Notes under the pieces: model-generated
Told to the model about the DNA's origin: nothing
The model's database searches: none
What the model saw: only the letters and a program-made list of their open reading frames with translations
Made by a program: the position numbers and the translations under genes
In this document: piece by piece, positions 3,353 to 6,232 of the stretch
Layout: each line of letters opens with the position of its first letter
Position numbering within the stretch: the first letter of the stretch is position 1
Assembly (NCBI GenBank): GCA_003660555.1
Contig: QMUK01000044.1
Location: 1-9,952 of the forward strand
Origin: Thermococci archaeon
GTDB taxonomy: Archaea; Hadarchaeota; B88-G9
Reading direction: 5' to 3'
Length of the DNA stretch: 9,952 nt

Positions 3353-4108
3353 TTAATCACCTTGCCCATACTTCTCTTTAAGAGCCCTTCTCTGCTCCTT
3401 GTATATCTTTCTACATCCTTCCATACCGAGTTTTAGAGCCTCCTTGAACTCCTCCTCAGTCATTGTTCCATCCATTTGGAGCAGAGTTATTCTATTGTCT
3501 CTCGGCATTATGGCAATGGGCATGTCTGCTTCTCCGAAATTGTCCTCTACTTTAGTTAGATCCAAGACTATCCTACCAGCTACTTTCCCTACAGCACAAG
3601 CAGAAACTAGGTCTCTCATTGGAATTCCAGCATCTGCTAGTGCTAGAGAGGCGGCGGTTATTCCGGTTGTTCTGGTGCCAGCATCCGCTTGCAGAATTTC
3701 TATGAATATATCTATGGAGGTTCTAGGGAAGTACTCTGTGAATATGGCAGGTTCTAGGGCAAGTCTGGTCACCTTAGATATTTCTATTGATCTTCTATCC
3801 GGCCCTGACCTCTTTCTTTCTTCTACAGAGAACGGGGCCATGTTGTATCTACAGTTAACTACAGCTCTGTCGGGTCTCTGTAAGTGCCTAGGGTGCAGCT
3901 CTCTAGGTCCGTAGACAGCAGCTATAACTTTATTGTCACCTATTTCAACATATGCTGAGCCATCTGCTCTTTTAAGAATTCCAACCTCCATTTTAATTTC
4001 TCTAAGCTCGTTTAATTTCCTACCATCTAATCTAGTACCATCTTCATTTATTAGAGGAGGTATCTCTGTCTGATGACTCCTCCACGGTCTCTTGTCTACT
4101 ATCTCCAT
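3353..4108 (-). CDS. rrp41: Exosome catalytic subunit Rrp41 (RNase PH family)
   Basis: This is the catalytic phosphorolytic 3'-5' exoribonuclease subunit of the archaeal exosome, which can also add A-rich tails. It alternates with Rrp42 in a hexameric ring. The 251-residue product has an RNase PH fold: RLDGRK (26-31), [18 protein letters not shown] (71-88, RNA-contacting arginines), [12 protein letters not shown] (138-149, phosphate-binding loop), and the acidic active-site region [16 protein letters not shown] with D183, D189 and D195. The intact acidic cluster and phosphate loop distinguish it from Rrp42. ATG 4108 is chosen, with GGGTGG 5 nt upstream; GTG at 4117 or 4114 would add two or three residues. 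No usual start lies between 4108 and the conserved DGRK region, so the 65-nt overlap with rrp4 is genuine. It ends Gly-Asp-stop, building the SD of rrp42. Confidence 0.97.
3355..3361 (-). promoter_or_regulatory. Shine-Dalgarno site of rrp42 overlapping the rrp41 stop
   Basis: GGTGATT on the minus strand encodes Gly-Asp and the first base of the TAA stop of rrp41. It is followed by aac and the TTG start of rrp42. The SD, stop codon and start codon fit within 13 nt, which argues for direct re-initiation of the terminating ribosome. Confidence 0.72.
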
Positions 4109-4892
4109 ATTCACCACCCAATTTCTTCGACAACATCTCCTTGATTCTATCAGTCAGACCGGAAGTATGAGCCTCTTTCTCAATCTTCTCTATTGCATTC
4201 GATAGTATTTCCATGACTCTCTCCTCACCATTTATCCATACGACACCATTCTGAGCTATTATTATGTCACAACCTGTTACATGCTTCAACATCTTTATCA
4301 TGGAGCCTTTTTTTCCTATTAAACGTGGTATTTTAGTCGGAGAAATTTTTATTAGTTTTCCTCCATTTATCTCTCCAAGCCCATCTTCTTTTATGGTAAG
4401 AGACACTCTTCTCACGGAATCCACACTTTTAACCTTTAGAAGGAGAGTATCTCCTACTCTGAAGTAATCCGAAGTGTCCTCTAGGACTGGGTCGAATTTA
4501 TCTAGAGCATCTTTCACATCCAGAACTCCCAAATACGGAGAATTTATGTCTATCAGCCATGAGGTGAATCCAGAATCTTTCACAACCCCTATGACTAGGT
4601 CTCCGCTTTGGGGAATGTACTTTCCCTCTAGGGCCACTACTCTAGCGAATTCTCCTTCTCTCTTTGCTAGTCCTACTACGGAGGAGTAGACTGATCCTCT
4701 GTCAGAGAAGGTACCAGGCCCTGGAGAGTACCCCACTGCCAATAGATCCCCGGGTATTACTAAGCCTCTCTCCTTAGCGACGAAGTACTTCAGATTCTTT
4801 CTATTAGTTTTGTTTGGGCCTCTCCTTTCGTTACCTCGTTTATTTTCTCGTAAAGTTCCTCTTGCACTCCTGCCGGGATTTCCATCAGACAT
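4044..4892 (-). CDS. rrp4: Exosome complex RNA-binding subunit Rrp4
   Basis: This cap subunit of the archaeal exosome binds RNA and feeds it into the Rrp41/Rrp42 ring. It has a short N-terminal domain (LVIPGDLL), an S1 domain ([20 protein letters not shown] through [10 protein letters not shown]), and a KH domain with a GxxG loop ([13 protein letters not shown]). [15 protein letters not shown] follows, then an acidic Ser-rich tail. The start is unclear. The first ordinary codons upstream are ATG 4892 and GTG 4898, overlapping the SBDS end by about 103-109 nt and adding some 33 very basic residues. No ATG, GTG or TTG occurs between 4892 and 4793. A CTG at 4793 would form a CTGA overlap with the SBDS stop and give 249 residues, near my recollection of crenarchaeal Rrp4 length. 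I report the ATG frame but regard CTG as a real alternative. The 3' end overlaps rrp41 by 65 nt. Confidence 0.9.
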
Positions 4893-5503
4893 AGCCACGA
4901 ACCATCCTTATCCCATTCCTCTTGTTTTATCCTCCCAAATCCTCTTAGAACACCATAGGCCTTACCAGAGTACTCCGGAGGCACCTTTATTGCCAGAATC
5001 ACTCTCTCAATTTTCAGTGGAAGTATGGCTCTTATCTTCTTTATTACTTCATTTGCTTGGTCCTCAACCCCTTTAAATGGATCTATATGAACTCCTGCCT
5101 CATCCAATGCCTTTTCTATTCTACTAGGAGGATGTGGAGCTCCTGTTTTTGGATCAACGGCATTTCTATGTATAAAACTTATTATTTGCTTTTTCTTTCT
5201 CTCCCTCATCTCTCTTATCTGTTCAGATGTTAATTTTATTTCTCCTTGGAGTATTATAGTCTTTGAAATTTCTAAGACATCCAATGTACCGAAAACTCTG
5301 CTCAATACGTCTTCTGATGCTACATCTCCCTTCCTCGCATCTCTGAATACCTTGTCTATTGCTAGTGCCTCCATTAGGTCAATGTCTTCTCCTACATCTC
5401 CTTTCTCTTTTATTTTGATGGCTACTTTTGGGTCCACGAGTATCTCGAACCTCTCTCCACCCTTAGATAGTCTAGCGATGACAGCCTCCTCTAGGCTGAC
5501 CAT
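4790..5503 (-). CDS. sdo1: Ribosome maturation protein SBDS (Sdo1)
   Basis: This is the orthologue of the Shwachman-Bodian-Diamond protein. In eukaryotes, with EFL1, it releases the anti-association factor eIF6 from the 60S subunit; archaea have eIF6 and an EF-2, so a similar late 50S maturation role is inferred. The 237 residues show the three-domain plan: an N-terminal FYSH domain (1-~90, with [11 protein letters not shown] and [12 protein letters not shown]), a helical middle domain (~92-165, with [22 protein letters not shown] and [15 protein letters not shown]), and a C-terminal ferredoxin-like domain (~170-237). The ATG at 5503 directly follows the psmA TAG, with GGTGA 5 nt upstream (5509-5513). 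The 3' end is where the Rrp4 reading frame begins or overlaps. Confidence 0.96.
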
Positions 5504-6232
5504 CTATTTCACCACATACTTTTCTATATACTCTCTCACCTCTTTGTCACTCAGTTTCCTGAACTTCTTATCCTCCTTACTTATTACTGCCATTTCTACT
5601 CTATCTTCGCGAAGTTTTATCTCAGTAGCAACATCTAGTGTTTTCAAGGCCAAATCTATTGCTCCCTCCAGCCCTAGGTCTTCAGAGTAATTCTTCTCCA
5701 AGAAGTCTAGTGCACTGGATTGTCCTCCGCCTATTGCCGTGGCCCTGTATTCATAGAGAGCACCGCTCGGATCAGTCTGGAATAGGTAGACCTCCTCTTT
5801 GTTCACACCACCAATTAGTAAAGCAGCACCAAATGGTCTAACTCCTCCAAATTGAGTATACTGCTGTTTTAGGTCACCTATTTCCTTAGCTAGGAGTGGT
5901 ACACTTATTGGTTCGTCATAGAGTAACCTATGGACCTGTGCTCTAACTCTGGCGTACTCTATCAGAGATCTCGCATCGGCTACCAATCCAGAGGTCGCCG
6001 CTCCAATGTGGTCGTCTATCTGGAATATCTTCTCTATCGATCTAGGCTCGATCAGTCTACTAGTGACCTTCCTCTCAACCAAGAGAACTATACCATCCTC
6101 ACACTTTATTCCTATAGCAGTTTTACCTCTTTTAACAGCTTCTTGAGCATATTGTACTTGGAAGAGTCTCCCATCGGGGCTGAAGACTGTTATTGCTCTA
6201 TCATATCCTGCACCGGGTGGAACGAAAGCCAT
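5504..6232 (-). CDS. psmA: Proteasome alpha subunit (20S core)
   Basis: This subunit forms the outer heptameric rings of the 20S proteasome, gates substrate entry and docks ATPases such as PAN or Cdc48. The 242-residue product matches the family length. It has the alpha-type N-terminal extension with YDRAITVFSPDGRLFQVQYA (about 10-29), the gate and H0 helix signature, followed by EAVKRGKTAIGIK. Later conserved parts are IDDHIGAATSGLVADAR, RPFGAALLIGG and TDPSGALYEYRATAIGGG. It lacks the processed N-terminal catalytic Thr of beta subunits, as expected. The ATG at 6232 has one of the strongest SD sites in the window. It is followed without a gap by SBDS. Beta subunits and the ATPase are elsewhere, as usual for archaea. 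Confidence 0.98.
   Translation of the reverse strand: MAFVPPGAGYDRAITVFSPDGRLFQVQYAQEAVKRGKTAIGIKCEDGIVLLVERKVTSRLIEPRSIEKIFQIDDHIGAATSGLVADARSLIEYARVRAQVHRLLYDEPISVPLLAKEIGDLKQQYTQFGGVRPFGAALLIGGVNKEEVYLFQTDPSGALYEYRATAIGGGQSSALDFLEKNYSEDLGLEGAIDLALKTLDVATEIKLREDRVEMAVISKEDKKFRKLSDKEVREYIEKYVVK

Follow-up and report, generated by a model that had tools for sequence, protein, structure and literature searches.

An unusual start for the exosome subunit Rrp4, and recurrent candidate near-cognate starts, in the genome of an uncultured archaeon

Where two genes overlap by 4 nt, the terminating ribosome can reinitiate without loading a new 30S subunit, as shown in Haloferax and E. coli, and the need for a Shine-Dalgarno (SD) sequence in archaeal reinitiation differs gene by gene (PMC6728339). 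In prokaryotic genomes no spacing comes close to -4 nt in frequency, while long overlaps seldom occur (PMC10666635). Switches from AUG to CUG make up 2/61,358 in annotated genomes (PMC5622118), and the initiation factor aIF1 of Sulfolobus is reported to disfavour non-canonical starts (PMC8211752). The start of rrp4 described here is a variation on these known types of coupling and start.

We analysed a window of 9,952 nucleotides from a draft genome (1.3 Mb in 150 contigs, 91% complete) that is the sole member of its family in our comparison set. The minus strand of the window carries psmA, SBDS, rrp4, rrp41 and rrp42 together with more genes of translation and RNA processing. The genes that concern us are:

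5504..6232, minus strand: proteasome alpha subunit (psmA), Pfam Proteasome
4790..5503, minus strand: SBDS, 237 amino acids, ATG start; matches Pfam SBDS_N, SBDS_domain_II and SBDS_C
4044..4793, minus strand: Rrp4 as read from CTG, 249 amino acids plus stop; ECR1_N, S1 and KH domains (Pfam); matches PDB Rrp4 chains 2ba0, 8xie and 2je6
3353..4108, minus strand: Rrp41, RNase_PH domains (Pfam)

The proteasome gene is the first of a conserved cluster, psmA-SBDS-rrp4-rrp41-rrp42, with identical neighbours in relatives. Rrp4 lies in its SBDS-rrp4-rrp41-rrp42 neighbourhood and has the complete ECR1_N, S1, KH architecture of its family; ECR1_N_2, ECR1_N, KH_6 and KH_1 exceeded the Pfam cut-off, RRP4_S1 fell slightly under it (23.5 vs 27.3 bits), and PDB Rrp4 chains matched down to 3.7e-50. 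In domains and gene order the protein resembles the archaeal Rrp4 exosome cap subunit (PDB 2ba0, 2je6, 8xie). It differs in lacking a canonical start where one normally stands and in a longer C-terminal tail, which runs 65 nt into rrp41. Rrp41 itself has no alternative to ATG 4108, 65 nt within the rrp4 3' end, and this ATG is preceded by a strong SD, GGTGGTGA, at 4118-4111. The corresponding N-terminal stretch of Rrp41 (4044-4108, minus strand) is absent from relatives. In one of these, G023, Rrp41 has an ACG right behind GGAGGTAATTGA (L019, about 2182), at a start that is ATG in nearly all other relatives.

The Rrp4 start in this genome is truly unusual. The elements that bear on it are:

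4791..4793, minus strand: CTG candidate start in the Rrp4 frame, read from the sequence; same position as the ATG of the ATGA junctions in L023, L029 and L030
4794..4807 (14 nt), minus strand: region upstream of the CTG, lacking GGTG or any other SD
4794..4892, minus strand: candidate basic N-terminal extension, 33 residues from ATG 4892, open frame
4902..4907, minus strand: weak SD-like GGATGG before GTG 4898 and ATG 4892

A preliminary description of this DNA had claimed that neither ATG, GTG nor TTG occurs between ATG 4892 and the Rrp4 core, and the sequence confirms this. Upstream of the conserved domain the frame offers only GTG 4898 and ATG 4892 as canonical starts, and the next canonical codons, TTG 4742 and GTG 4736, fall inside the N-terminal domain. 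At the SBDS/rrp4 junction there is a CTG alone and no ATG, GTG or TTG. SBDS ends in GAA AGA ATC TGA, with its TGA at 4792-4790, so that CTG 4793-4791 and the stop share TG in the CTGA overlap already described, and the resulting Rrp4 does have 249 residues. The Pfam N-terminal domain starts 8 residues past the CTG; in a 284-residue form of Rrp4, ECR1_N_2 spans residues 44-91 and the CTG is residue 36. If the CTG is the start, the overlap is -4 nt, the commonest coupled spacing in the genome (20/45); if ATG 4892 is used, there is no stop-proximal start. The CTG sits at the homologous start position, yet ATG 4892 and GTG 4898 are open in frame. We found none of the ATGA junctions that had been claimed elsewhere in the operon, where the other junctions measure -1, 0, -8, -17 and -65 nt. 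RNA folding at the three candidate Rrp4 starts was unremarkable.

Chance expectations were obtained by holding the SBDS protein fixed and re-sampling its synonymous codons according to the codon usage of the genome. A canonical start was reachable upstream in 38% of the re-sampled sequences, the frame was open across all 34 codons in 5%, and CTGA arose at the junction in 5%. Neither the upstream open frame nor the CTGA is a compelling coincidence by itself. The missing canonical start, at a place where 25/25 loci of the phylum have one, lies far outside chance.

Searching 27 other genomes of the phylum gave 25 loci with a readable junction. In all 25 the Rrp4 start (ATG, in a few cases GTG) is spaced -4, -1 or 0 nt relative to the stop of SBDS, forming ATGA, TGATG, TAATG or a start immediately after the stop, and GGTG occurs within 14 nt before it. 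The GGTG is absent from the window. An ATG exactly at the position of the CTG, which the preliminary description had named as support for a CTG start, was found in L029 and L030 of the phylum and in L023 outside it, and in L023 the number of residues from the start to the conserved VxPG equals that counted from the CTG. In only 2 of the 25 phylum loci does the open Rrp4 frame reach the length of the extension in the window. Given the junction starts of the relatives, their conserved GGTG and the scarcity of long open frames, the ancestral Rrp4 start lay at the junction. A scan of genome contigs for closer relatives returned only a distant Diapherotrites locus.

We next scored SD signals with a matrix covering the 22 nt before starts and trained on 445 ortholog-supported genes of the same genome. 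The scores were -0.8 for CTG 4793, 2.8 for both ATG 4892 and GTG 4898, and 5.5 for the Rrp41 ATG. A score of 2.8 corresponds to the 36th percentile of starts and is exceeded by 12% of background positions. Scores below -0.8 were found for 14% of all chosen starts. None of the 45 chosen coupled starts fell below 0.6, a figure biased by the procedure of start choice; when coupled canonical codons were taken without regard to score, a less biased set in which some are not real starts, 24% scored -0.8 or less. The preliminary description was right that no good SD precedes the CTG. Because GGTG is conserved in 25/25 relatives and missing here, this absence weighs more than was then known. In coupled pairs the end of the upstream gene usually, though not always, carries an SD; the SBDS tail has none for Rrp4. 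The junction therefore resembles the -4 nt NTGA junctions of termination-reinitiation in archaea and bacteria (PMC6728339, PMC10666635, PMC12548453) in its overlapping candidate start and stop, co-directed genes and conserved operon, and differs from them in the C as first base and in the SBDS tail lacking an SD. A CTG at the P site after SBDS termination, with no SD, would be expected to function weakly.

The region upstream of the CTG was also considered as coding sequence for Rrp4. The extension comprises 33 residues from ATG 4892, or 35 if GTG 4898 is used. It contains 10 K/R with a net charge of +7, values that about 15% of open out-of-frame windows attain. Within the overlap SBDS uses its codons in the normal way and shows no trace of an additional constraint, and nothing in PDB matched before residue 31. 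The basic extension has the look of ordinary sequence read out of frame, and nothing singles it out as selected. At 103 nt the forced overlap of Rrp4 would exceed that of every other real gene tested across 960 kb of the genome. The second largest is the 65 nt of Rrp41; with a strong-SD start lying that deep in rrp4 in the same operon, the upstream Rrp4 start is less outlandish.

To compare ortholog frames, we used 960 kb of the window's genome (G000) and 1.2 Mb of G001, both from the same phylum. Candidates were frames with no canonical codon, or no usable one, between the opening stop and the conserved N-terminus, and with a near-cognate codon at the position of the partner's start; families were named by Pfam. 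The following were found:

G000, L072:2448, plus strand: CTP synthase (PyrG), CTG, AAGGAGGgagaaactCTG ACC AAA TAC; no in-frame ATG, GTG or TTG before the conserved N-terminus
G000, L166:3302-4255, minus strand: ornithine/aspartate carbamoyltransferase (OTC), GGTGGTGGT CTG AAG; no in-frame ATG, GTG or TTG before the conserved N-terminus
G000: metallophosphoesterase, CTG, GGTGGGGGAGacc CTG AGA ATA GGA
G000, L035:6553-7551, minus strand: Cbf5/TruB, GGGGTGATaga ATA; no in-frame ATG, GTG or TTG before the conserved N-terminus
G000: CBS-domain protein, ATA, AGGAGGTGATCtca ATA, the ATA following AGGAGGTGATC
G000: ribosomal protein S19e, ATA, AGGAGGTGGttcga ATA
G000, L060:9577-10158, plus strand: Ham1/RdgB, GAGGAGGGGtagat ACG; no in-frame ATG, GTG or TTG before the conserved N-terminus
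G001, L083:705-1943, minus strand: EF-1alpha paralogue, good SD, CTG the sole possible start, GGAGGGTCCGTT CTG TCT AAA AAA CAC
G001, L085:5262-6173, plus strand: SerA, good SD, CTG the sole possible start, AAGGTGAgcaact CTG AAA ATT

The CBS-domain protein has CTG in G001 at the start that is ATA in G000. In some candidates, S19e and the CBS-domain protein among them, a GTG lies within the SD itself. The CTG of SerA occurs in two species, G001 and G003; that of the G001 EF-1alpha paralogue was not found in its sister species. Several ATA, ATT and ATC candidates were dropped, each having a good ATG, GTG or TTG beside it. Lumazine synthase was weakened as proof of a CTG start, the CTG being followed directly by GTG in G001 and G003, with ACG in G004. 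At one aligned position of this gene (L132:5572 and relatives) ATG, TTG, GTG, CTG and ACG all occur within the phylum. Among the starts chosen in the 960 kb, ATG was counted 183 times, TTG 157 times and GTG only 53 times, and TTG was preceded by an SD at least as often.

Across the window's genome, SDs were not enriched before CTG (0.13, equal to background), so any use of CTG must be rare. The recurrence of near-cognate codons at conserved starts, which is a matter of alignments and SD contexts and not proof of use, makes CTG a credible start. It seems tenable, a little short of an even bet, that members of the phylum regularly start about 1-2% of conserved genes (including PyrG, OTC, Cbf5, S19e, SerA and the EF-1alpha paralogue) at CTG, ACG or ATA behind a good SD; Rrp4 of the window would then go further, with a CTGA overlap and no SD. 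Like the rare prokaryotic near-cognate starts (CUG, AUU; PMC5622118), the Rrp4 junction has CTG where relatives have ATG or GTG. Unlike the two switches counted there, the candidates here involve several conserved genes in one archaeal phylum, a comparison biased by the fact that annotation programs rarely allow CTG.

Our preferred reading, with a rough probability of 0.47, is that Rrp4 starts at CTG 4793 by stop-coupled reinitiation. Ribosomes finishing SBDS would reinitiate at the overlapping CTGA, where the starts of relatives sit, and the initiator tRNA would pair with a near-cognate NTG unaided by an SD. The junction of this lineage would have lost both the GGTG and an A, G or T as first base of the start codon, and owing to these losses we infer that output of Rrp4 from the CTG would be low and wholly tied to SBDS translation. 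The reading draws on the ATGA at the same position in three relatives and the common -4 spacing, on the near-cognate codons at other conserved starts in the phylum, on the variable need for an SD in archaeal reinitiation, and on an assembly that looks accurate, since only a few of several hundred conserved frames are split. Against it stands the lack of an SD, which almost all other near-cognate candidates have. The joint loss of GGTG and canonical start also counts against the CTG, as it is what relaxed selection after a shift of the start would be expected to leave. Two further points against are the great rarity of AUG-to-CUG switches in annotated genomes and an intact aIF1 of normal appearance, whose presence also rules out its loss as the reason for a relaxed choice of starts. 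Two tRNA-Met (CAT) genes were found, and nothing odd was seen in them.

Decay of the junction start after an upstream start had taken over is a serious possibility, though on balance doubtful. Rrp4 would then begin at ATG 4892 or GTG 4898 within SBDS and carry the basic extension. The pattern of losses fits this account, both codons are canonical with a middling SD, and Rrp41 provides a comparable overlap in the same operon. The extension would also be structurally tolerable, since eukaryotic Rrp4 chains have roughly 10-55 residues before the homologous domain (PDB chain offsets). Yet no relative has the extension, its composition and the SBDS codons beneath it are ordinary, the overlap would be of record size for the sampled genome, and the CTGA at the junction would have to be a 5% coincidence. 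The preliminary description had posed the question as one between these two starts. That framing stood; our weighing is rough, with odds near even and a slight lean to the CTG.

Two further accounts seem to us improbable. Both starts may be used, giving two forms of Rrp4, or translation may begin at another near-cognate or intradomain codon. Both starts are indeed open and neither is strong. However, starting at TTG 4742 or GTG 4736 would cut conserved residues from the N-terminal domain, these codons score only -1.3 and 1.0, and the sole other near-cognate codon near the junction is an AAG with no SD. About equally improbable is that the CTG is an artefact of assembly or strain consensus, the true junction carrying a base other than C (A, G or T) or being longer by a few bases, an SD among them. 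A single substitution of that C would suffice for a canonical NTGA, and the sequence comes from a many-contig draft with no second genome of its family for comparison. The few split genes nevertheless indicate a low error rate, one base would not explain the missing SD, and CTG starts are seen in independent genomes of the phylum too.

The apparent recurrence of near-cognate starts is a more interesting lead than Rrp4 itself. If such starts are normal in this phylum, core proteins there are given wrong N-termini by standard annotation, and the phylum would offer a setting in which to learn how the initiation factors of archaea control the stringency of start-codon choice. For Rrp4, the choice of start determines whether this lineage's exosome cap bears a new basic arm or contains a poorly translated but ordinary subunit.
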